Source: a virus. Taken from it: a stretch of 20,213 nucleotides of DNA. This document shows positions 6,948 to 17,564 of the stretch, piece by piece. Under the pieces are notes generated by a model that did not search any database, was not told where the DNA came from, and was given only the letters and a program-made list of their open reading frames with translations. The stretch covers positions 1 through 20,213 of IMG/VR virus record IMGVR_UViG_3300045017_000268; one strand, written 5' to 3'. Numbering within the stretch: position 1 is the stretch's first letter; every line of letters starts with the position of its first letter. The translations under genes and the position numbers were made by a program.

Positions 6948-7826
6948 ATGCAGAATCTGACTACTCCATATAAAGACGAAGCAGCCAAAGGAGAGAACCG
7001 GCCTATTGAGCTGTATGACTTTTATTTAGGCACTCAAGACCACTGCGACGCAAATACCTTTTATTTCTGCACAGACAATAAAAGGTGCCAGTTCTGGAAT
7101 TTAGACGGAGTACTGCAGTATTACATTCCGCTTGGCATAAAGCGCTCGGCAATACCGGCATCGAACCAGCTTGAGATTGAGGCAGTGTCAGGGGAGTTTG
7201 ACAATGTGGACCGGGCCTGGAGCAACTGGCTTAATACCGTGGACCTAAGAGGCAGGCGGGTGGTGATCCGCAAGGTCTTTCTGGACCTGCTTACAGATCC
7301 TCTGCATGCCAAGGTAATGTTTGACGGCATTATTAATGCGGTAGCAGAGCTGACAGAATTAAGCGTCAAGATTGAATGTAAGTCAAAACTTAAATCCCTG
7401 GCTGTTGAGACAGGAAGGATGCAGCAGCTTTACTGCAATTATATTTTCGGAGACGAGTTTTGCCAGTTCAATGTGGCGGCAACCAGGATCACAGGGCAGC
7501 TGGTAGGTGCAGGTTCCACAACCGGATTCATTATTGATGCAAGCCGGACAGAGGCAGACGACTTTTGGAACGACGGAGTGATTCAGTTTAATTCAGGGGT
7601 TAATTCCGGATTAAAGCGCAAGGTGGTGGATTTTACCTTAGCGGAGCACAAGCTGATTCTGGATTATGCCCTGCCTCAGGCACCCAATCCCGGGGATCTT
7701 TATTCAGTTGAGAAGGGCTGCGACAAATCTTTTGATGTCTGTAAAAACAGGCACAACAATCAGGCGAATTTCGGCGGGTTTAAGCATATCCCACAGCTGA
7801 TTAATCCGATTAGCAAAGAAGAATGA
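6948..7826 (+). CDS. Tail hub protein with four-cysteine cluster site (lambda gpL / RcGTA hub type, DUF2163/BR0599)
   Basis: This 292-residue protein carries the N-terminal hub domain ('PIELYDFYLG', 'YYIPLGIKRSAIPASNQLEIEAVSG', 'GRRVVIRKVFLDL') and the C-terminal block of the BR0599/DUF2163 family ('CDKSFDVCKNRHNNQANFGGFKHIPQ'). Cysteines 163, 172, 258 and 265 have the paired arrangement that in lambda gpL and the RcGTA hub holds an iron-sulfur cluster; the cluster here is inferred from the family. The protein forms the trimeric base to which the tip protein attaches. It follows the distal tail gene and overlaps the next gene by four bases (ATGA at 7823-7826). Confidence 0.8.
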   Translation: MQNLTTPYKDEAAKGENRPIELYDFYLGTQDHCDANTFYFCTDNKRCQFWNLDGVLQYYIPLGIKRSAIPASNQLEIEAVSGEFDNVDRAWSNWLNTVDLRGRRVVIRKVFLDLLTDPLHAKVMFDGIINAVAELTELSVKIECKSKLKSLAVETGRMQQLYCNYIFGDEFCQFNVAATRITGQLVGAGSTTGFIIDASRTEADDFWNDGVIQFNSGVNSGLKRKVVDFTLAEHKLILDYALPQAPNPGDLYSVEKGCDKSFDVCKNRHNNQANFGGFKHIPQLINPISKEE

Positions 7827-10800
7827 AAAAACTCGATACAGAATTATTAAATAAGCTGGTAGGTGTTAAGTGGCTCCAAGACGGCCGGGACCTTAGCGGC
7901 ACAGACTGCGTAGGCCTGATGCAGCTTTATTTTAACTCAAGAGGCGTTGAAGGTATTGCGCCTAAGATCAGCGAGGTTGATCAGACTAAGCAGGATGAAA
8001 TAATTAAAAAAATCCTTGAGACAAATACCATTGTCAAAAAAGACGAGCTTGAGCCTGAGGATATCCTGGTCTTTAAGATTAACGATGAGCTGCACGTCGG
8101 GCTTTATTTAGGCTACGGCCGGATGCTGCATGCAAGAAAAAACGCTAAATCCAGGATCTCCCGACTTGATGCTAATTGGGAAAAATACTTTTTATTCGCC
8201 ATCCGTGAAAAAGACGGCAAGATCTACATCCCGCCTGCGGGCCCGCCAGCTGCCATTGCTGTTGCCTTGGTAATTGCCGATTACGCAGCTGCTTCATTTA
8301 TTGCTGGAGGTTTGATTGCATTATCACTTACCACTATAGGCTGTCTTATCGGCACAGCCATGATCGGCTATGCCATCGGCCTGGCAATCCAGACCAGGCA
8401 GCAGTCAAAATCAGGCGGCGCATCCGCATCCCCGCGTTACCGCTTCGGCGAGCTGCAGACAACCTCTACAAATCAGTATCCAGTGCCGGTATTGTACGGC
8501 GAGGCGCGCTTAGCCGGGAATATCGTTTATCAGAATCCGGTGATGGGAGGAGAGCAGATAGACTTGCTTATCGTACTCTGCCAGGGCGAAATCGAAAGCA
8601 TCTCTGATATCAGATTAAACGGCGAGCCCATCGGAAGTTTTCCCGGGTGTTCGTATCATGCCTTTTTAGGCACTCCGGCGCAGAATGTGCAAACCGATAC
8701 CGGTTTAGACTTAGACGGCATTCAGTACCGCAATACTGCTATGCTGCATGTGCATCTTGAGACTTCCGACAAACTAAAAGGCGGTCGTCCGAATATTACC
8801 TGTATCTGCAAGGGAAGGAAGGTTTCCACCTGGACCGGAGCAGATTGGACATCGCTTAAATATTATTCGGAGAATCCTGCAGCCTGTATCAGGGATTATT
8901 TGCTTATGAAACTCCAAATCGGTGGCTGCGGATACTTAACAGCTGACATCGATGACTTGTCTTTTGCCGAGGTTTATGACCGCTGCCAGGAATTAGTGTC
9001 TGACGGCCAGGGAGGGCAGGAGCCAAGATATACGGTTTCCTTCTGCATTGACCAGAAGCGCGCAGCTTCAGATAACTTAAGCGAGATGCTGGTGGGTTTT
9101 GCCGGGGCGCTCATAAGAAGCGGCTCAAAACTAAAGCTGATCATTGCCAAGCCTCAGGCAGCAGCAGCTTCCTTTGATGAGGATGATATCCGGGATTTAA
9201 GAATAATTCAAAAGGGGCTGGATCAGAAGATTAACCGCTTCGGCATTGAATACTTTGACCCGACCCAGGATGATGCCAGGATCCTTGCCTGGGGAGCAGA
9301 GGATAAGGTGGATCAGGATGAAAGAGGTTTAGTTGAGCAGACGCTGACCATTCCTTCAATCAACAGAAAAACGCAGGCCTCAAGATTAAGCAACCAGTAT
9401 TTCTATGAGTTAAAGCTTTGTCCGCTCTCGGTTGAGTTTACAACTTCCTTAAATGCCGTAGGCCAGGAGATAGGCGATGTGATTACACTTACGCATTCGC
9501 TCATGGGCTGGACGAATAAGCAGTTTATTATTCAGCGTATTGAGGAGGACGAAAAAGACGTCTATAAAATCACGGCGCAAGAATACAACGCCTCAATTTA
9601 CAACGACCGCTTTGGCGCCACCATTCAATCTTTTGATTACGGCACGCCGCCTAATCCGTATGCGCCGGTTTCGGAGGTGAGTAACTTACAGCTGGCTGAG
9701 AGCCTTTATTATCTGCATAAAGACGGCACAGTTGGCTCGGATATCCAGATTACTTTTAATGAACCCAGCGATGACTCAAAGATTTTTTTGAGCCACTATC
9801 AGATTGAGCTTAAAAAAGGAGCGGAGGAATATAAAGTTTCCGGTACTGCTACTGAACCGCACTTTACCTGTTTTGCTGTGGAGGATGAGCAGACCTACAA
9901 AGTAAAGGTGAGAACAGTTTCCATAAACGGCATTATTTCAGACGGCCTGGAATCAGGGGATCTTACTGTCCTGGGTAAGCTGCAGCCTCCATCAGATGTC
10001 GCAGGATTTGAGGTTTCGCAGGAAGGGAATTTTTTAAGATTCAGCTGGGATGCAATACCTGACGCCGATCTAGCCCGCTACGTGATCAAAAAAGGTTCTG
10101 AATGGTCTACCGGCCAGTTTATCGGTGAAAAAGTCGATACCACCGAGTTTGTCTATCCGGTAGGCGAAATAGGACAAGTTACTTTTATGATTAAGGCAGT
10201 GGATACTTCCGGCAACGAAAGCTCAACCCCTGGCATTGACTCTTTGGTGATTACCCCGCCTCCGGAGATGAATTTCATTAATGACTTTGACCTCTGGAGC
10301 CAGGAGCTAAGGTATAAGCTTTCTAATTTAGACTTGGTTTACACCAATGATTTTGACCTCGGCTACGTGCGGCCAGCCTTAAGCATAAAAACTGACTTTA
10401 GCTGGGAAGACCGAGAAGCTCAAGGCCTAACCTGGGAGCAGCAGGAGGCTGGAGGAGGACTTAATTTAAACGGTCCTACTAAGTTATCCGGCTTCTTTGA
10501 AATGATTGATCCGGTTGATCTCTTAACTGTCTTTGAGTTTAAGGTGATTGTGGATGCTGATTACCGCAATGTTTTAGGAGGTTCTTTAGAGGTGCAGATC
10601 AGTTATTCCTTAGACGGCATAAGCTACAGCGCTTTTGAGCTGATAGATGCCTTTACTACCTACACGGCAAGGTTTGTGAAGTTTAAGTTTATTCTCTCGA
10701 CAACAGATATAAATCATCACATTTACTTCTACGGCTGCCACCTTTTTATCAATGCTCCGGTGACCAGGGTATCGTGGTTTAGGGATGTATTAATCCCGGT

Positions 10801-10993
10801 GCAGGGTAAAACTATACTTTTTGGCTCTGGCTTTAATTATCCGCCCAGGGTAAGTGTGACAATAGTAAACGGAGTTATCGGCATGCCAATAGTGGCAAAT
10901 AAAACTACCACCCAGTGTGATATCCGGGTCTACGACCGTCTGGGAGCTGCCATAGGCACAGCTGAGGTGGATATCGATGTGAAAGGATACTAA
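7823..10993 (+). CDS. Fused tail tip protein: NlpC/P60 peptidase, gpI-like segment, gpJ-like tip attachment with FN3 domains
   Basis: One 1056-residue frame covers what is three genes (K, I, J) in lambda. Residues 1-130 are an NlpC/P60 peptidase: likely nucleophile Cys29 in GTDCVGL and catalytic His91 in ELHVGLYLGYG, with a further 'RMLHA' His103. It would open peptidoglycan during entry. Residues about 140-190 are hydrophobic with small residues ('AAIAVALVIADYAAASFIAGGLIALSL', 'IGTAMIGYAIGLAIQ'), as in gpI. From about 204 the gpJ-like hub begins ('SPRYRFGELQTTSTNQYPVPVLYGEARLAG'). Two FN3-like domains lie near 612-715 and 720-812 ('PPSDVAGFEV...LRFSWDAIPDADLARYVIKKG'). The last 240 residues are beta-rich and may contact fibres or receptor. 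ATGA overlap with the hub gene. Confidence 0.85.
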   Translation: MKKLDTELLNKLVGVKWLQDGRDLSGTDCVGLMQLYFNSRGVEGIAPKISEVDQTKQDEIIKKILETNTIVKKDELEPEDILVFKINDELHVGLYLGYGRMLHARKNAKSRISRLDANWEKYFLFAIREKDGKIYIPPAGPPAAIAVALVIADYAAASFIAGGLIALSLTTIGCLIGTAMIGYAIGLAIQTRQQSKSGGASASPRYRFGELQTTSTNQYPVPVLYGEARLAGNIVYQNPVMGGEQIDLLIVLCQGEIESISDIRLNGEPIGSFPGCSYHAFLGTPAQNVQTDTGLDLDGIQYRNTAMLHVHLETSDKLKGGRPNITCICKGRKVSTWTGADWTSLKYYSENPAACIRDYLLMKLQIGGCGYLTADIDDLSFAEVYDRCQELVSDGQGGQEPRYTVSFCIDQKRAASDNLSEMLVGFAGALIRSGSKLKLIIAKPQAAAASFDEDDIRDLRIIQKGLDQKINRFGIEYFDPTQDDARILAWGAEDKVDQDERGLVEQTLTIPSINRKTQASRLSNQYFYELKLCPLSVEFTTSLNAVGQEIGDVITLTHSLMGWTNKQFIIQRIEEDEKDVYKITAQEYNASIYNDRFGATIQSFDYGTPPNPYAPVSEVSNLQLAESLYYLHKDGTVGSDIQITFNEPSDDSKIFLSHYQIELKKGAEEYKVSGTATEPHFTCFAVEDEQTYKVKVRTVSINGIISDGLESGDLTVLGKLQPPSDVAGFEVSQEGNFLRFSWDAIPDADLARYVIKKGSEWSTGQFIGEKVDTTEFVYPVGEIGQVTFMIKAVDTSGNESSTPGIDSLVITPPPEMNFINDFDLWSQELRYKLSNLDLVYTNDFDLGYVRPALSIKTDFSWEDREAQGLTWEQQEAGGGLNLNGPTKLSGFFEMIDPVDLLTVFEFKVIVDADYRNVLGGSLEVQISYSLDGISYSAFELIDAFTTYTARFVKFKFILSTTDINHHIYFYGCHLFINAPVTRVSWFRDVLIPVQGKTILFGSGFNYPPRVSVTIVNGVIGMPIVANKTTTQCDIRVYDRLGAAIGTAEVDIDVKGY

Positions 10994-11135: not shown

Positions 11136-12176
11136 ATGGAAAGACATGTTTTTGATCCTAACCAGCCGACAGGCTCAATGAGCTTAGAAAACCTGCGTAA
11201 CTGCCTGCGCGCAATCTTCCAAGGAGATTTATTTCCTTTAAGGCCGCGGGCCTCAATGGTGCTCGATGACTTAGAATACCCAACAGATGCTTTAGCGCAG
11301 GCTAAATGGAGCGGGACAGGAATTACGGTTACACATTCAACTACAAAGCAAGAAGGCAACTATGCCCTGCAGTGCGTGATTGATGCCACACCTAACCGGC
11401 AGGTAACTACTATTAAGTTTTTGAACTTATCCGGATTTAAGCAGATTACCCTCTGGGAGAGATGCTCTGGATCATCCCAGGCGTTTAGGTTTTTCTTAGA
11501 GGATAATCTCGGGCATGTGAGTTATTGGAATATAACCAGCCACGCAACATCCGGGACTTGGAAGAAAGACACCCTTACCCTGGCTACACCCGACGGCAAC
11601 AACGGAACACCTGCAGTATTAGCCAATATCACTGACTTTGGGTTTTATCAGCTTCCGGCAAATCAGACCTTTATCTTTGATACTATTTCTGCGGTCTGCG
11701 GGATGAATGTGGCAGTGAGTTCTGCGCTGGTTGCAGGATTTTATCAGAATATCTATATCGGCTCAACCAGGCTTACCTTTGCCGGAGGAGCATCTGCGCT
11801 GATGACCGCCCCCGGTGCAAATCCCAGGATTGACTTATTGACTATTAACGCAGCCGGAACCTTGGAATGGACGCAAGGGGCAGAAGCAACAAATCCGGCA
11901 GAGCCTGTTTTCCCTACGGGAAAGTTTCCGGTATGCCTTGTGTATTGCAAGCCGACCATGACTAAGGTGGTTGATTATGAATTTAAGGACGCAAATCCTA
12001 ATGAGGGATATATCTACAAGGACGTGCGGCCATTGTATCTTTTAGGGATGAGTTCGTTCTTGGCATTAACCGACTGCCCGGCAAGTTACGCTGGCCAGGC
12101 GGGCAAGTCTGTCAGAGTAAAGGCTGATGAGACAGGCTTAGAGTTTGCATTCCCGAATGCAACTTACGCGGAGTAG
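11136..12176 (+). CDS. Tail fibre or receptor-binding-type protein
   Basis: This 346-residue protein starts with 'FDPNQPTGSMSLENLRNCLRAIFQGDLFPLRPRAS', likely the virion-attachment part. Residues about 40-190 are beta-rich ('VLDDLEYPTDALAQAKWSGTGITVTHSTTKQEGNYALQC' through 'FIFDTISAV') with the look of a carbohydrate-binding jelly roll. The region around 205-290 ('IYIGSTRLTFAGGASALMTAPGANPRIDLLTINAAGTLEW') resembles receptor-facing phage structural modules, and the end ('SFLALTDCPASYAGQAGKSVRVKADETGLEF') is a motif seen widely in phage tail fibres. The combination supports a fibre or adsorption role, although ligand and oligomer state cannot be read. It lies directly ahead of the cysteine-rich protein. 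Confidence 0.7.
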   Translation: MERHVFDPNQPTGSMSLENLRNCLRAIFQGDLFPLRPRASMVLDDLEYPTDALAQAKWSGTGITVTHSTTKQEGNYALQCVIDATPNRQVTTIKFLNLSGFKQITLWERCSGSSQAFRFFLEDNLGHVSYWNITSHATSGTWKKDTLTLATPDGNNGTPAVLANITDFGFYQLPANQTFIFDTISAVCGMNVAVSSALVAGFYQNIYIGSTRLTFAGGASALMTAPGANPRIDLLTINAAGTLEWTQGAEATNPAEPVFPTGKFPVCLVYCKPTMTKVVDYEFKDANPNEGYIYKDVRPLYLLGMSSFLALTDCPASYAGQAGKSVRVKADETGLEFAFPNATYAE

Positions 12177-12181
12177 AAAAT

Positions 12182-12904
12182 ATGCCGGAGCATAGATTGC
12201 CGCCGAAACAATGCGCCTCAAATATTCCCAGCTGGACAGATCTGGCTTTGACTGCAGATTCAGTTAAGGTGCGTAACGACCATATAGAGGAGCTGCGCAC
12301 AAAGGTTAACCTGGAGTTTACTAGGAGGTATTTGTCCACGGCAAGTTTTACGGATCCGACGCTTACGGCCAATGCGACTAAGGTTAGAAATGACCACATC
12401 CAGGAGCTAAGAGCCGAGCTGCAGAATATAAAGACAGGCAGAGGCGAATCCGGTTACTGCGTGCAGGACGGTTCAGGCTGCATGGATTTTACTGACCCAA
12501 CATTAACCGCAAATTCTACAAAAGCGCGTAATGACCATGTTTCGGAATTAAGGGGCAAGCTGCAGGCTTTAATGACCGGCTGTATCTGCGAGGCAGAGCA
12601 GTGCCAGTATTGCGCAGACTGCGGCTACTATTATCAGACCTGTTCGCATCAGGGAGTGGCCTGCGACAACCATAAATACAATGAATGCGGCCATTCGATG
12701 GTAGACCACTGGATCTGCGCAAGCTATAACCTGCCCGGAGGCACCGCGCATCCGTATAAAGCAGCCTCAGGGGATCCATTATCCATAACCAACTGGGACG
12801 GTTTTGTGCCTTGGAGTCCGCAGTGTAATTACGCGCCTCCCGGGATTAACTGGCAGAGCGCTCATTCAGACTGGAATTGCAAATGCAATCCTTTTACCTG
12901 GTAG
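12182..12904 (+). CDS. Cysteine-rich repeat protein next to the radical SAM genes (candidate modification substrate)
   Basis: This 240-residue protein has three repeats of the form (S/D)(F/W)TD.(T/A)LTA(N/D).(T/V)KxRNDH(I/V).ELR, near residues 17-43, 55-82 and 102-129. Such 'FTDP.L....T.vR..H..ELR' repeats occur in other phage and secreted bacterial proteins. The last 107 residues are different: 12 cysteines (134, 136, 141, 144, 147, 154, 161, 169, 179, 215, 233, 235) among many aromatic residues, ending NCKCNPFTW. In total there are 15 cysteines. No signal peptide or membrane segment is seen. The C-terminus could be a zinc-binding or disulfide-rich knob, or the target of the three radical SAM enzymes that follow. 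The function is not known. Confidence 0.8.
   Translation: MPEHRLPPKQCASNIPSWTDLALTADSVKVRNDHIEELRTKVNLEFTRRYLSTASFTDPTLTANATKVRNDHIQELRAELQNIKTGRGESGYCVQDGSGCMDFTDPTLTANSTKARNDHVSELRGKLQALMTGCICEAEQCQYCADCGYYYQTCSHQGVACDNHKYNECGHSMVDHWICASYNLPGGTAHPYKAASGDPLSITNWDGFVPWSPQCNYAPPGINWQSAHSDWNCKCNPFTW
12230..12568 (+). repeat. Three protein-level repeats (FTDPTLTA...RNDH..ELR)
   Basis: Bases 12230-12310, 12344-12427 and 12485-12568 encode three related segments of about 28 residues. Repeats 2 and 3 are the closest (FTDPTLTAN shared exactly); repeat 1 is more diverged. At the DNA level they differ at many third positions, so they are not a recent duplication. Confidence 0.85.
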
Positions 12905-12910
12905 AGAGCT

Positions 12911-13291
12911 ATGTTTAAAGATAAAGAATTCTTAATAAATATCACCCTAAAGATTGCCAAGCATGCGCAGGCTGATCCTGTGACAGAGTTGATTTACTGG
13001 GTGAGGCTTAATTTAGACAATGCCAAGACAGGGGATTTTACCAGTAGTCATTTTGAGGACGCAGATTTATTCAGCGGTGCCTTAAAGAGCGCAGTGCAGG
13101 AATTAGGCATAGAGGACGAGGAAGGCAGGATCTCAAACTTCGCTTTCTTTATTGCCGGAGGGGATAAAAACAAGCTTTACTTGGCCGGAGTGATTCCTTT
13201 GACCTTGGAGCATAAGGAAATACTTAAGACCAAGCTTAAGATGGAAACCACTCCGGTTGATGAGGGGCTGTTTTTATTAAATTGGCTATGA
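12911..13291 (+). CDS. Unknown 126-residue protein, first gene of the radical SAM cassette
   Basis: I do not recognise this protein. It has an N-terminal helix ('KEFLINITLKIAKHAQADPVTELIYWVRLNL'), an acidic centre ('ELGIEDEEGRISNFAFFIAGGD') and a C-terminal 'LYLAGVIPLTLEHKEILKTKLKM...PVDEGLFLLNWL'. It has no cysteine, no signal peptide and no membrane segment, and it does not look like the PqqD-type RiPP recognition element. Its stop overlaps the start of the first radical SAM gene (ATGA at 13288-13291), so the products are probably made together. It may be a binding partner or chaperone that brings the substrate to the enzymes, or a substrate itself; both are guesses from position. Confidence 0.7.
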   Translation: MFKDKEFLINITLKIAKHAQADPVTELIYWVRLNLDNAKTGDFTSSHFEDADLFSGALKSAVQELGIEDEEGRISNFAFFIAGGDKNKLYLAGVIPLTLEHKEILKTKLKMETTPVDEGLFLLNWL

Positions 13292-14502
13292 GCGTATTTA
13301 TCTTAGAAGAAACTAAAGCTTGCATCGGCCTGCCTGATGTTTGCCGGACAATTATCAAACGGTATAAAGAGGAAGGCAGGTTTGAGATCGCTTCAATTAC
13401 CGCGGATAAGCAGGAATATACCTCTGTCTATTTACTTATGACGCAGGACTGCAACCTGGCATGTCCTTACTGTTATCAGCCTCGGGAATTCAGGCAGAAA
13501 GGCGCGGAGATCTCCAAGCAGGTTATTGATGATACGGTGAATTTTGTCCTTAAGCATTTTGACGAGGCAAGGGTTAAATTTTCGATCTTCGGAGGCGAGC
13601 CGTTTTTGAACTTCCCGATGATTAAATATTTAGCAGAGACTTACCCGATGTTTCATTATGTGGTAACCACCAACGGCCTTTGTTTTATCGAGGATAAAAG
13701 TATCAGGGACTGGATCGCAAAGCACAAATACCATTTTAAGGTCAGCGTCAGCATTGCATCCTTAAAAGCAAAATTCGGTAAAGATTATTTAGAGGCAGCC
13801 AAACCCGCCTTGGATATCGTGCAGCATAACGGCGGGGACGTGCATTACGTGATTGATGATCCGGATCAGGCCGGGGTGTTTGAGGAGATTAAATATTTAT
13901 TCGAGTATCCGGTGCCGGTAGTGCGCATCTCAGCAGCCAGGCATTGGGACATGATTAAGGAGAAGAATGAGGCATATGAGGCTTTATTCAAAAGGCTGGC
14001 AGACTACATTTATTTTACCGGAGAGCCGAAGTTTGGAAGCAGCCAGTGGGATATTGCCTTTAAGAACAACCTTTACCGCAAGCTTAAAGGATTACCTTTA
14101 AAACATGTCCCGCCGACTTTCTGCGGATGCGGGTATTTGTATTTGGCAGTAAATCATAAGGGAGAGATTTACCCCTGCGATTTCTTTGCCAACTTTCCGG
14201 AGTTTAAGATCGGGGATATCTACTCAGGCTTTAATGAAACCGCCTTGTTTTTTAAGAAGATGGGGGATTGGCTGGATGAATTGTATGAGGACTGCCGGGA
14301 GTGTTCGGTCTGCGAGGGTAGTGATATCCGGCTTTGCCCGCGGGCAATGTGTTTGGCGGAAAATTATATCGTAAACGGCAATCCGCTAAAGCCGGCAGCG
14401 AACCACTGCTGGGCTAACAGGGTTGAGTACGCCAATTTTGAATACATTGCCAAAAAGGCAATTGCTCTTGGCATTGATGAGCTTTACTGCAGGGGAAAAT
14501 GA
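13288..14502 (+). CDS. Radical SAM/SPASM protein 1
   Basis: This 404-residue enzyme has the CX3CX2C motif for the SAM-binding [4Fe-4S] cluster at Cys55, Cys59 and Cys62 (CNLACPYC), the GGEP motif at 102-105 and a 'VVTTNG' strand near 125-130. The C-terminal SPASM domain has cysteines 279, 281, 297 (EIYPCDFF), 336, 339, 342, 350, 355 and 374, enough for two auxiliary clusters. Such enzymes make radical-based changes to peptide or protein substrates, such as thioether or carbon-carbon bonds, epimerisation or oxidation; which one cannot be read here. The first 45 residues are an extension too short for a full RiPP recognition domain. ATG 13288 is preferred to TTG 13282 because it gives the ATGA overlap that recurs in this cassette. 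Confidence 0.88.
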   Translation: MSVFILEETKACIGLPDVCRTIIKRYKEEGRFEIASITADKQEYTSVYLLMTQDCNLACPYCYQPREFRQKGAEISKQVIDDTVNFVLKHFDEARVKFSIFGGEPFLNFPMIKYLAETYPMFHYVVTTNGLCFIEDKSIRDWIAKHKYHFKVSVSIASLKAKFGKDYLEAAKPALDIVQHNGGDVHYVIDDPDQAGVFEEIKYLFEYPVPVVRISAARHWDMIKEKNEAYEALFKRLADYIYFTGEPKFGSSQWDIAFKNNLYRKLKGLPLKHVPPTFCGCGYLYLAVNHKGEIYPCDFFANFPEFKIGDIYSGFNETALFFKKMGDWLDELYEDCRECSVCEGSDIRLCPRAMCLAENYIVNGNPLKPAANHCWANRVEYANFEYIAKKAIALGIDELYCRGK

Positions 14503-15575
14503 AAATACCAGTTTATAAAACAGTTTATCTCTACTTAACGCATGCCTGCGATTCAGGGTGCAGTTTCTGCTACCGCAGAGGCCTCTTTACCCGAAACAAT
14601 CCCGAAAGCTTGGGGCCTCGGTTTATGAGCGAAGACATGGCTTTTAGGATTCTAGAGTTTGTATTCTCGGAACTGGAGCTTGATCCTAAATTCGCAATCT
14701 ACTTTTGGGGAGGCGAGCCGTTACTAAATTTTGCCGTGATTAGAGCAGTAGTTGAAAAACTCCCTCAATTCTTATACCACACCAACACTAACGGCGCGCC
14801 CATAAATCAGGGCATGTATGATTGGTTAAGCCGAAACAAGAATTTAAGCCTGACCTGGTCCTTGGGCAATGCCTATGAAAAATACGGCTCACTCAAGGCA
14901 AAAGTCTATGCCGAGCCCTGGGCCCTCAGGCTGGTAAAAGAAAACCCGCAGCATAACGTCAACTTTATGGTGACAAGATATGACCGGTTATTAGAGGATT
15001 TTGATTTTCTTATTAATAATGTCACCCGCAATATCACCCTAGACCTGGCTACGCGCTTTGAGCATAAGGAAGAGGATCTGGAAAGGTTTGCGGAGGAATA
15101 TTTTAACCTGCTGCAAAAATACAGAGATGACAAAGAGCTTTATCAGGCAATGAATCCGGCCATACACTCAAACCTTTATTTTAAGGAGTTCGGATTAAAG
15201 TCGCAGGTGGAAGATTTTCATTACTGCCGGTCCGGATTAGAGCGGTTATTCATAGACACAGCAGGCGGTATCTGGCAGTGTGACAACATGTATATCTGCC
15301 AGCATAACAAATTAGGCGATATCGAGCGGGGCATTGACTATTCCAAGCTGGAGCTTGTCTGGGAAATCGATGTCAACCGCGAGAAGTATCTCGGGCAGTA
15401 CTGCCGGGATTGCGAGCTTTACAAGCTTTGCCCGCGCAATAAATGTCTTGGTCTAAACCTAGAATGGATGCAAGACATGTTTAAGCCGGAGCCGTCATTC
15501 TGCAAGATGTGCAAGGTCTTATTCAAAATAACCAAGCGTTACATTGAGCTTGAGAAGGAGGCGAAATGCAGCTAA
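14499..15575 (+). CDS. Radical SAM/SPASM protein 2
   Basis: This 358-residue enzyme has CX3CX2C at Cys17, Cys21 and Cys24 (CDSGCSFC), GGEP at 71-74 and 'TNTNG' near 95-99. SPASM-region cysteines are 243, 261 (GIWQCDN), 267, 302, 305, 311, 316, 335 and 338. It differs strongly from protein 1 outside the motifs, for example in the 'LSLTWSLGNAYEKYGSLK' segment, so the three enzymes are old paralogues or were gathered separately, not recent copies. It probably modifies the same or a linked substrate as its neighbours. It starts within the stop of gene 1 (ATGA) and overlaps gene 3 by ten bases. Confidence 0.88.
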   Translation: MKIPVYKTVYLYLTHACDSGCSFCYRRGLFTRNNPESLGPRFMSEDMAFRILEFVFSELELDPKFAIYFWGGEPLLNFAVIRAVVEKLPQFLYHTNTNGAPINQGMYDWLSRNKNLSLTWSLGNAYEKYGSLKAKVYAEPWALRLVKENPQHNVNFMVTRYDRLLEDFDFLINNVTRNITLDLATRFEHKEEDLERFAEEYFNLLQKYRDDKELYQAMNPAIHSNLYFKEFGLKSQVEDFHYCRSGLERLFIDTAGGIWQCDNMYICQHNKLGDIERGIDYSKLELVWEIDVNREKYLGQYCRDCELYKLCPRNKCLGLNLEWMQDMFKPEPSFCKMCKVLFKITKRYIELEKEAKCS

Positions 15576-16717
15576 AGGAAAATGAGATTAAAAGCATCGA
15601 TTTATTCATTACCGAGCAGTGCAACATGGATTGCAGCTATTGTTTTCATGCCAAGCGCGATGAGGTTTTAAGCCTCGAGCAGGGCAGAAAGATTTTAGAG
15701 CGCATGAAGCAGATCAGCCCGGAGGCTCTGCAGATTACTTTCTTCGGAGGCGAGCCTTTACTTTATCCGCAAACAGTCTTAGAGCTGGCCAAGTATGCCC
15801 GGCAGCTTTGGCCGGATAAAGACAGGGTGCATACTTCAACTTTTAGTGTTTCCACCAACGGCACCTACTTCGATGAGGAAATGTTTAAGCAGTATAAGGA
15901 GCTGGGGTTTTCCATGCAGGTCAGCTGCGACGGAGACGAAATCACTACAGCAGAATACCGCAAGGGCGACTGGAAACTAGTCACCGAGAACATTAAGAAG
16001 ATGCTGGTAATCTTTCCGGATCTAAGCGTGCGCCTGACTTATACTCCAAAGACCGCAGGCAGGCTTTCCATAAATGTGCAGTTCTTGCATCAGGAGCTGG
16101 GGGTTAAAAGAATAACTCATCATGCGGTAATGGAAGACGACTGGACTCCTGAGGCGGTAGAAAAGTATGTCTATCAGCTGAACCAGCTCTATCACTACAG
16201 ACGCTACTGCTTAAGGCAGAGTATTCCTTTGGAAATCGCTTTTATTGATAAGCCCCTAAAGACAATTAATGACGAGGTGCCTCCGGATTCAAACTACTGC
16301 GAGGCAGGCAAGTCTTATTTAGCGGTCCTGGCCAGCGGCGATGTTTATCCCTGCCACCGGGCAGCCAGCGTCAGGGTATTCAAACTGGGAAATATCTTTG
16401 AAGAGCGGCCTTTTATCCGGGGAATGTTCTTAAGCATTAACAAAGAATACACCGGCTGCTGGAAGAATTGCTTTGCAGCAGTTACCTGCCACAGCTGCGT
16501 GATCACGCATTATAAGGTCAACGGCGAGTTAACACAGCCGGTTGCCAAATACTGCCAGCTTTGCAAAGCAGAATACAATCAGGCCTTAAAATTCCTGCCG
16601 GTTGAGTTAAGCGACCGCAGGGAAAGGATGATTTACAAGATCGCCCAGGTTTTAGTAGACGTAGCCAGACAGAACGAAGAAGTTTTAGCCGAATTGCGAA
16701 AGGAGCGTGCGTCATGA
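15566..16717 (+). CDS. Radical SAM/SPASM protein 3
   Basis: This 383-residue enzyme has CX3CX2C at Cys19, Cys23 and Cys26 (CNMDCSYC), GGEP at 61-64, 'SVSTNG' near 94-99 and SCDGD at 120-124, the last like the S-DG motif of anaerobic sulfatase-maturating and sactipeptide-type enzymes. SPASM-region cysteines are 245, 263 (DVYPCHR), 298, 302, 308, 311, 330 and 333. Of the three it looks most like the classical subtilosin/anSME-type group. It has its own strong site (GAAGGAGG) inside the end of gene 2, so it may be made at a higher level than coupling alone would give. Its stop overlaps the next start (ATGA at 16714-16717). Confidence 0.88.
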   Translation: MQLKENEIKSIDLFITEQCNMDCSYCFHAKRDEVLSLEQGRKILERMKQISPEALQITFFGGEPLLYPQTVLELAKYARQLWPDKDRVHTSTFSVSTNGTYFDEEMFKQYKELGFSMQVSCDGDEITTAEYRKGDWKLVTENIKKMLVIFPDLSVRLTYTPKTAGRLSINVQFLHQELGVKRITHHAVMEDDWTPEAVEKYVYQLNQLYHYRRYCLRQSIPLEIAFIDKPLKTINDEVPPDSNYCEAGKSYLAVLASGDVYPCHRAASVRVFKLGNIFEERPFIRGMFLSINKEYTGCWKNCFAAVTCHSCVITHYKVNGELTQPVAKYCQLCKAEYNQALKFLPVELSDRRERMIYKIAQVLVDVARQNEEVLAELRKERAS

Positions 16718-17007
16718 CAGGAGACAGTATTGGTTTTGAGGAAATAGTAGTTGATTTGAGCGTGGCGAGTTTAAATCCGGCAATTTATAACCCGCCTGCA
16801 GGAGATCCGGCTGCCAAGGCTTTTATCACTGCAGAAGGCGGGCCTATGAGGTATCGGCTTGACGGAGTGGATCCCACAGACACTACCGGGCATTTATTAA
16901 TGGACTCGGATTTCCTGGAGCTTAAAAGCATTTACCTGATTAATAAATTCAGGGCAATTAAGACAACGGTTAACCCGGGAAAGTTATCCGTGACTTACGA
17001 AAGTTAA
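16714..17007 (+). CDS. Small beta-rich phage protein (probable virion accessory protein)
   Basis: This 97-residue protein has the pattern 'AFITAEGGPMRYRLDGVDPTDTTGHLL', then 'LELKSIYLINKFRAIKT', then 'GKLSVTYES', which I recall from small proteins in tail regions of other phages, where the role is unproven. It is predicted to be an all-beta fold without cysteine, signal peptide or membrane segment. It starts inside the stop of the third radical SAM gene, so it belongs to the same translationally coupled string and may be a virion component whose assembly goes with the modified protein. A RiPP-type peptide substrate is less likely given this fold. Confidence 0.65.
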   Translation: MTGDSIGFEEIVVDLSVASLNPAIYNPPAGDPAAKAFITAEGGPMRYRLDGVDPTDTTGHLLMDSDFLELKSIYLINKFRAIKTTVNPGKLSVTYES

Positions 17008-17018
17008 GGAGGCGGCTT

Positions 17019-17564
17019 ATGCATATCCAGCAGTCAAGAACATACAAGCTTGAGAATGTTATCAATCAGGTCTTTAACGCAGCCCTGCTAAAGACAGGCC
17101 AGGCCTATTCGTATTACCCGGGCGATGACGGCCAGTATCAAAAGGGAGCCTCACCGCAAGGCAACAGATTTATCGATAACGGAGACGGAACCGTAACCGA
17201 TAATTTAACCGGCCTGATGTGGATTAAGGATCCTACGCAGATTCCCGGGTTTGGCTCGACTATGTATTGGTATGATGCGCTTAACGCCTGCGAGAGCCTT
17301 GATTATGCCGGTCACGACGACTGGCGTATGCCGAATATAAACGAGCTTCTATCTATAGTAAATCACTCAAGGTTTGATCCGGCATTTGACCCAATGTTTT
17401 TTACTCCCTTTCCCGATAACTGGACGCCTTATTGGTCGTCTACTACATGCGCGCCTTGGACGGACGGCGTATGGTGTCTGTACCCCTATGACGGTTATAA
17501 AACAGTCTGGAGCAAGCCTTATGATATGTGCTATGTCAGGCCTGTCAGAGGCGGACAGTCTTAA
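17019..17564 (+). CDS. DUF1566/Lcl_C domain protein (C-type-lectin-like), possible receptor-binding protein
   Basis: This 181-residue protein has a 48-residue N-terminal part (probably virion attachment) and then the Lcl_C/DUF1566 domain at about 50-178: 'FIDNGDGTVTDNLTGLMW', 'WYDALNACESLDYAGHDDWRMPNINEL', 'YWSSTT' and the end 'YVRPVRGG', all signature parts of the family. The fold is related to C-type lectins and to formylglycine-generating-enzyme-like domains, and phages use it to display ligand-binding surfaces. Some relatives are diversified by retroelements, but no reverse transcriptase or template repeat is visible here. A strong TAAGGAGG site precedes ATG 17019. No signal peptide is present, which fits a virion protein. 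Confidence 0.8.
   Translation: MHIQQSRTYKLENVINQVFNAALLKTGQAYSYYPGDDGQYQKGASPQGNRFIDNGDGTVTDNLTGLMWIKDPTQIPGFGSTMYWYDALNACESLDYAGHDDWRMPNINELLSIVNHSRFDPAFDPMFFTPFPDNWTPYWSSTTCAPWTDGVWCLYPYDGYKTVWSKPYDMCYVRPVRGGQS

Follow-up and report, generated by a model that had tools for sequence, protein, structure and literature searches.

Among the closest described counterparts of the locus reported here are the PapB systems, in which enzymes of radical SAM plus SPASM architecture are accompanied by a neighbouring Cys-rich ribosomal substrate. PapB ranthipeptide maturases (NF047865) are the best NCBIfam match of each of the three radical SAM enzymes studied here, rSAM1, rSAM2 and rSAM3, and rank first or second for most of the relatives tested. 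In phages, radical SAM genes are usually filed as auxiliary metabolism; in the open-access papers searched we found no earlier description of such enzymes acting on phage tail proteins, and an earlier account elsewhere is possible. We consider it likely (roughly 75%) that CR240, the Cys-rich protein encoded ahead of these enzymes, is a tail-tip virion protein, that rSAM1-3 dock at or near its repeats and cross-link its Cys- and aromatic-rich tip, and that the product enters the tail tip.

CR240 and its neighbouring genes

The sequence analysed, called the window below, is the whole stretch of 20,213 nucleotides at positions 1-20,213 of IMG/VR virus record IMGVR_UViG_3300045017_000268. The genes and parts of genes discussed are as follows.

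tf346: 11136..12176, + strand, tail-fibre-like protein upstream of CR240; PHROG tail protein match (E 5.4e-6) to its C-terminal motif
CR240: 12182..12904, + strand, 240 aa with three repeats and 15 Cys; proposed substrate of rSAM1-3 and tail-tip component
CR240 repeat 1: 12236..12298, + strand, aa 19-39, TDLALTADSVKVRNDHIEELR
CR240 repeat 2: 12350..12412, + strand, aa 57-77, TDPTLTANATKVRNDHIQELR; aligned by hhalign to the leader of prophage Cys-peptides
CR240 repeat 3: 12491..12553, + strand, aa 104-124, TDPTLTANSTKARNDHVSELR
CR240 Cys/aromatic-rich tail: 12554..12901, + strand, 12 Cys, C-terminus NCKCNPFTW; proposed modification site
p126: 12911..13291, + strand, fast-evolving accessory protein of siphovirus versions only
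rSAM1: 13282..14502, + strand, CNLACPYC, GGEP, SPASM domain
rSAM2: 14499..15575, + strand, CDSGCSFC, GGEP, SPASM-like cysteines (model score just below cut-off)
rSAM3: 15566..16717, + strand, CNMDCSYC, GGEP, SPASM domain; of the three, the nearest to the PapB model, yet below its cut-off
p97: 16714..17007, + strand, no family match in Pfam, PHROG or NCBIfam
Lcl_C-domain protein: 17019..17564, + strand, Pfam PF07603 (E 5.6e-29), outside the minimal module

CR240 is placed among tail genes: in the window it follows gpJ (7823-10993; PHROG central tail fibre J, E 2.9e-75) and tf346, and in the contractile-tail phage contig L015 it comes after baseplate and tail genes. A gap of 6 bp separates it from p126, in keeping with an earlier note on this DNA that had put the gene immediately ahead of the radical SAM cassette, and from p126 through the three enzymes to p97 successive genes overlap by a few bases. 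What the same note had read in CR240, namely three RNDH-ELR repeats, a total of 15 Cys of which the tail has 12, and the ending NCKCNPFTW, is borne out on the translated ORF, where 12 of the 15 Cys lie after residue 124. Not one of 20,000 shuffles of CR240 contained two RNDH motifs. p126 and p97 are free of Cys, as had also been stated, though the downstream Lcl_C protein has 4.

Across 13 aligned CR240 homologues, 13 of the 15 Cys are invariant, versus 78 of the 240 residues overall (Fisher p = 1.2e-5). Neither a credible match to CR240 nor a tail-fibre domain within it was found among Pfam, PHROG and NCBIfam models. Its AlphaFold model, made from a shallow alignment, is unreliable (mean pLDDT 36, pTM 0.25) and has three low-confidence helices at the repeats. 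The earlier note had counted a confidently modelled ordinary zinc or disulfide domain at the C-terminus against its idea; none was predicted, but a model of this quality supports no statement on the fold.

CX3CX2C and GGEP are retained in rSAM1, rSAM2 and rSAM3. With PF04055 (gathering cut-off 29.5), rSAM1 (36.8) and rSAM3 (61.8) score above and rSAM2 (23.8) below; with the SPASM model TIGR04085 (cut-off 27), rSAM1 reaches 35.8 and rSAM2 stays just below at 26.7, while rSAM3 passes the SPASM model PF13186 (24.6, cut-off 21.5). Seven or eight C-terminal Cys are invariant or nearly so in each of the three alignments. In rSAM2 and rSAM3 the CX3CX2C motif stands at residue 17-19, which, given the size we take an RRE to have, leaves no room for one fused at the N-terminus. 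p126 was considered as a separate recognition domain and set aside: its AF2 model (pLDDT 74) has no PDB fold match, the best being at E 0.22, and the protein is absent from contractile-tail versions.

Co-occurrence and the smallest shared unit

Queries with CR240, its alignment, rSAM1 and rSAM3 located CR240 on 24 distinct contigs, counting the window; 20 of these are viral records and four are genome contigs. Wherever downstream sequence is available, rSAM1 is next after CR240, either directly or past p126 (22 of 22 contigs; L002 and L016, which end at or inside CR240, were left out of this count), and among the contigs whose sequence continues there is none without an enzyme. The co-occurrence that the earlier note had proposed to look for is thus found, and it spans siphoviruses as well as phages with contractile tails. 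Complete copies of rSAM1, rSAM2 and rSAM3 are present together on 16 of the 24 contigs; rSAM1 of L036 is split in two ORFs, and in L003 and L012 rSAM3 starts and then the contig ends. It should be noted that the independent contigs are fewer than counted, since there are near-identical records among them (L004/L005, L008/L009, window/L002) and they come mostly from related siphoviruses, and because of the latter part of the co-occurrence is shared descent. The earlier note had also suggested that Cys positions might co-vary with enzyme number; the number of Cys, judged by eye, shows no trend with the number of enzymes, with 12 Cys beside three to four enzymes, 18-20 beside two and 90 beside five.

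Two Omnitrophota genomes with rSAM3 and no CR240, G040 and G260, were considered as counter-examples and set aside, both being without rSAM2 and either broken or at a contig end. The G040 fragment begins at about codon 95 of rSAM3, beside an inverted phage gene, and G260 stops at the same codon, at the contig end. This breakpoint lies near NGMFFDE in both genomes (L153 ~9400-9730; L154 position 5483), and in G040 the inverted phage gene adjoining the break is near a large serine recombinase. The shared breakpoint is either a recombination site or an assembly junction.

Comparison of phage groups delimits the unit. A second siphovirus group (group B; L011, L028) is only distantly similar to the window in gpJ (22-23% identity) and tape measure (29%) and has no match to tf346; identities are 56-63% for CR240, 66-72% for the enzymes and 32-36% for p126, the least conserved gene of the unit. 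L036 and L037 retain CR240, p126 and rSAM1-3. L015, part of a 92-kb phage with a contractile tail (Baseplate_J, E 2e-12), carries CR240 immediately before rSAM1, rSAM2 and rSAM3; among 11 window genes compared, only CR240 (48%) and the three enzymes (39, 40 and 52%) are shared. L033, a second contractile-tail phage with CR240, is cut inside rSAM1. CR240 with rSAM1-3 is the smallest unit moving between phages.

The accessories of siphovirus versions are p126, p97 and the Lcl_C protein. p97 is missing from L015, L036 and L037, and so is the Lcl_C protein, which most siphovirus versions retain and which is possibly a receptor-binding tip protein. That the enzymes modify one of these three, with CR240 incidental, is an idea one might draw from the place of p126 between CR240 and rSAM1 in siphovirus versions and from the 4 Cys of the Lcl_C protein; we find it barely credible, since L015 has CR240 and three enzymes and none of the three accessories, L036 and L037 do without p97 and Lcl_C, and p126 varies far more between siphovirus groups than the rest of the unit (32-36% versus 56-72%).

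Three of the four genome contigs belong to Omnitrophota, the fourth to a MAG labelled Ruminococcaceae UBA1447. Among the Omnitrophota contigs is one complete chromosome, that of Candidatus Velamenicoccus archaeovorus; there, relatives of capsid, tape-measure and gpJ genes stand alongside CR240. Among 384 Omnitrophota genomes, CR240 with its Cys tail is present in three (in one of them split across two contigs), and five further genomes match mainly at the repeats, in other proteins; module profiles detected no radical SAM gene in the 10-20 kb around these repeat-only proteins in any of the five. Secreted-type Omnitrophota proteins at L043, L045, L049 and L050 share these N-terminal repeats, behind which come long Cys-rich regions, and the one of genome G189 (L049) has 1,217 aa, 110 Cys and a signal-like start. 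Since secreted proteins encoded away from any radical SAM gene carry the repeats too, those of CR240 are not solely an enzyme recognition leader: they are a module of general occurrence, and recognition is unlikely to be their only role.

Cysteine-array proteins beside radical SAM genes in other phages

A scan with the rSAM1 alignment returned 113 relatives; the best 80 loci of the 113 were taken, and 63 of them are further loci of other phages. Many radical SAM genes of these loci adjoin ORFs that look helical at their start and carry a dense Cys array, such as the (CNCNYCT)n proteins of many freshwater phages, each with exactly 12 Cys, and (CQxCQxC)n proteins, found in pairs in prophages. 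By hhalign, CR240 aligns with the phage 12-Cys family over 134 columns (probability 95.4, E 2e-8) and with the prophage Cys-peptides (probability 89.8, E 1.8e-6). Profile comparison establishes homology, at the level of sequence, between CR240 and Cys-array proteins that include tail proteins. Two unusual loci may be mentioned: at L129:11756-14353, three radical SAM genes are followed by four 12-Cys proteins encoded in tandem, which may be alternative tail tips, and L105:5259-6302, located among five radical SAM ORFs, encodes a protein of 346 aa with 90 Cys in repeats of the CxCNY type.

The association was counted in both directions. In the forward direction we scored same-strand ORFs with at least 8 Cys in 60 aa at most 4 kb from a radical SAM gene, after pattern-based removal of low-complexity shadow frames and other radical SAM ORFs; loci sharing an identical 100-aa radical SAM stretch were merged (62 loci into 47 clusters), L097 having been dropped for want of an HMM hit. 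The result was positive for 36 of the 47 clusters, L092 and L123 marginally, and 11 had no Cys-array ORF in 4 kb. ORFs passing the Cys threshold made up 51 of 634 near radical SAM genes, 2 of 176 farther away on the same strand and 29 of 772 on the opposite strand. This last rate makes the bare threshold noisy, and weight was therefore put on the profile-based reverse test. In human-gut phages, four of the five loci examined (L220, L221, L223, L224) have no convincing Cys-array neighbour.

For the reverse test Cys-array proteins only were used as queries, which gave 64 loci (50 + 14) in 45 clusters at 90% identity. A radical SAM ORF lies within 6 kb at 61 of the 64 loci and in 42 of the 45 clusters; for contigs missing from the results of the radical SAM scan, as judged by contig name, the figure is 26 of 29. 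Three exceptions differ in kind: the match at L190 is limited to an S74 chaperone and includes no Cys array; the contig of L195 starts beside the gene, with a CX3CX2C ORF downstream; and L196 is real, with no radical SAM gene in 14 kb. In a small control, none of three ordinary S74 tail loci had a radical SAM gene nearby. CR240 itself is found in none of 50,697 named phage records, while rSAM3 matches are found in 78 of them; homologues common in phages free of radical SAM genes, which would have told against the earlier note, were not seen, and its view of CR240 as a candidate radical SAM substrate gains support from the 22/22 pairing together with the 61/64 reverse loci.

Several relatives carry parts of virion proteins. 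The 12-Cys proteins of L104 and L110 have Peptidase_S74 at their C-terminal end, which places the class among virion proteins, and a relative at L085 is a collagen-like tail fibre (PHROG tail fibre, E 2e-24) that has a Cys tip. At L088:1352-7405 and L138:1715-7951, proteins of 2,018 and 2,079 aa with C-terminal CGCECPEE repeats are encoded directly before a radical SAM gene; by eye, both have a baseplate-like N-terminus and a Ser-rich part ahead of the repeats.

The class extends to jumbo phages, including the cultured Salmonella phage SPN3US.

SPN3US Cys-rich ORF pair: L222:3061-3874, L222 being the reverse complement of NC_027402 positions 134258-147289, which puts the pair at about 143,416-144,229 of NC_027402, minus strand; two ORFs of 130 and 134 aa with 21 and 20 Cys

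On one side of the pair lies the gene of virion protein gp99, on the other are the radical SAM genes gp102 and gp103. The first ORF is absent from the SPN3US annotation, and in place of the second a different frame is annotated, as gp100; by PHROG the Cys-rich ORF falls in phrog_6085, of unknown function. The leader of the first ORF occurs in 54 records, all among the 61 with a gp103-type enzyme (60 of the 61 compared). Seven jumbo-phage records with the enzyme gave no BLAST match to the Cys ORF, and the two of them that were examined, Kwan (L225) and CR5 (L226), each have two such ORFs.

The shortness of prophage and jumbo-phage relatives (~93-151 aa, in pairs) and the resemblance of rSAM1-3 to peptide maturases could suggest that the module makes a released ribosomal peptide, such as a bacteriocin, a signal or a superinfection factor, with the repeats as a cleaved leader. 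We regard this as highly improbable: comparison of the cassette genes with Pfam, PHROG and NCBIfam gave neither a dedicated transporter nor a leader protease, CR240 stands behind tail genes in both siphovirus and contractile-tail phages, and its relatives bear tail chaperone, collagen-fibre or baseplate-like parts.

A further alternative is that the enzymes act on something else and share no more than a tail operon with CR240 and its relatives, which would be ordinary structural domains that form disulfides or bind metal. It would accommodate the Omnitrophota secreted proteins, which combine the same repeats with a Cys-rich part and have no radical SAM gene in the fetched neighbourhood, as well as a Cys count that does not follow enzyme count, and arrays such as CxCNY could conceivably bind metal. 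Against this, the pairing holds in unrelated phages with unrelated tail genes (54 of 54 records in jumbo phages), and L015 keeps it after losing every other neighbour, where a bystander would have separated; the AlphaFold result, weak and from a shallow alignment, does not predict a confident zinc or disulfide fold. On balance this alternative seems unlikely to us.

Proposed function and comparison with known systems

We infer that CR240 is the substrate of rSAM1-3 and a component of the virion. Its three repeats, predicted to be helical, would form a stalk and probably the part at which the enzymes dock. The enzymes would then modify the tip, most likely through sulfur-to-carbon or ring cross-links, and the modified protein would be built into the tail tip. 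Such a tip would be rigid even though the cytoplasm is reducing and disulfides are not stable in it; the presumed advantage for the phage is that cross-links made there need no oxidation.

CR240 is best read as one case of a wider class, that of phage structural proteins which end in Cys arrays and are encoded beside SPASM-type radical SAM enzymes. We lean towards the broader proposal that many tailed-phage lineages, namely Omnitrophota siphoviruses and contractile-tail phages, freshwater phages, prophages of isolate genomes and Salmonella/Erwinia jumbo phages, share virion proteins with C-terminal Cys arrays cross-linked by phage SPASM enzymes, that is, phage-specific stapled tail tips. If so, phages own a chemistry for rigid, redox-proof tips, with a bearing on host recognition, on tail stability and on cross-linked protein tips generally, and a large set of overlooked Cys-rich phage ORFs is opened for study. 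Cultured jumbo phages such as SPN3US make the link between enzyme and substrate open to direct test, since the enzymes and unannotated candidate substrates are present in them together.

Among PHROG families, the best match of rSAM1-3 is phrog_1802 (radical SAM domain-containing protein), and neither this entry nor phrog_6085 gives a partner or a function. Like a classical RiPP precursor, CR240 adjoins maturase genes; unlike the classical short ones it is 240 aa long. The NCBIfam matches that follow PapB are also largely maturases of Cys-rich peptides. By analogy, rSAM1-3 probably work similarly to PapB maturases, and kinship of the enzymes would imply thioether chemistry at CR240. However, the NF047865 scores of rSAM1, rSAM2 and rSAM3 (112.4, 85.1 and 170.4 bits) are far under the curated cut-off of 340, and the three therefore lie outside the PapB family. 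The present locus differs also in having three different enzymes, no transporter seen at the cassette, and a candidate substrate with helical repeats in a tail operon.

Tailspike and tail-fibre proteins with Peptidase_S74 resemble the class in that the 12-Cys proteins of L104 and L110 end in this intramolecular chaperone; CR240, in contrast, is without S74, and ordinary S74 loci, as in all three controls, are without radical SAM genes. Finally, the maturases of CXXX-repeat targets (TIGR04115) are the best match of SPN3US gp103 (E 3e-36), which likewise neighbours Cys-repeat ORFs, but gp103 scores 125.6 bits against a cut-off of 350 and belongs to a phage virion locus.
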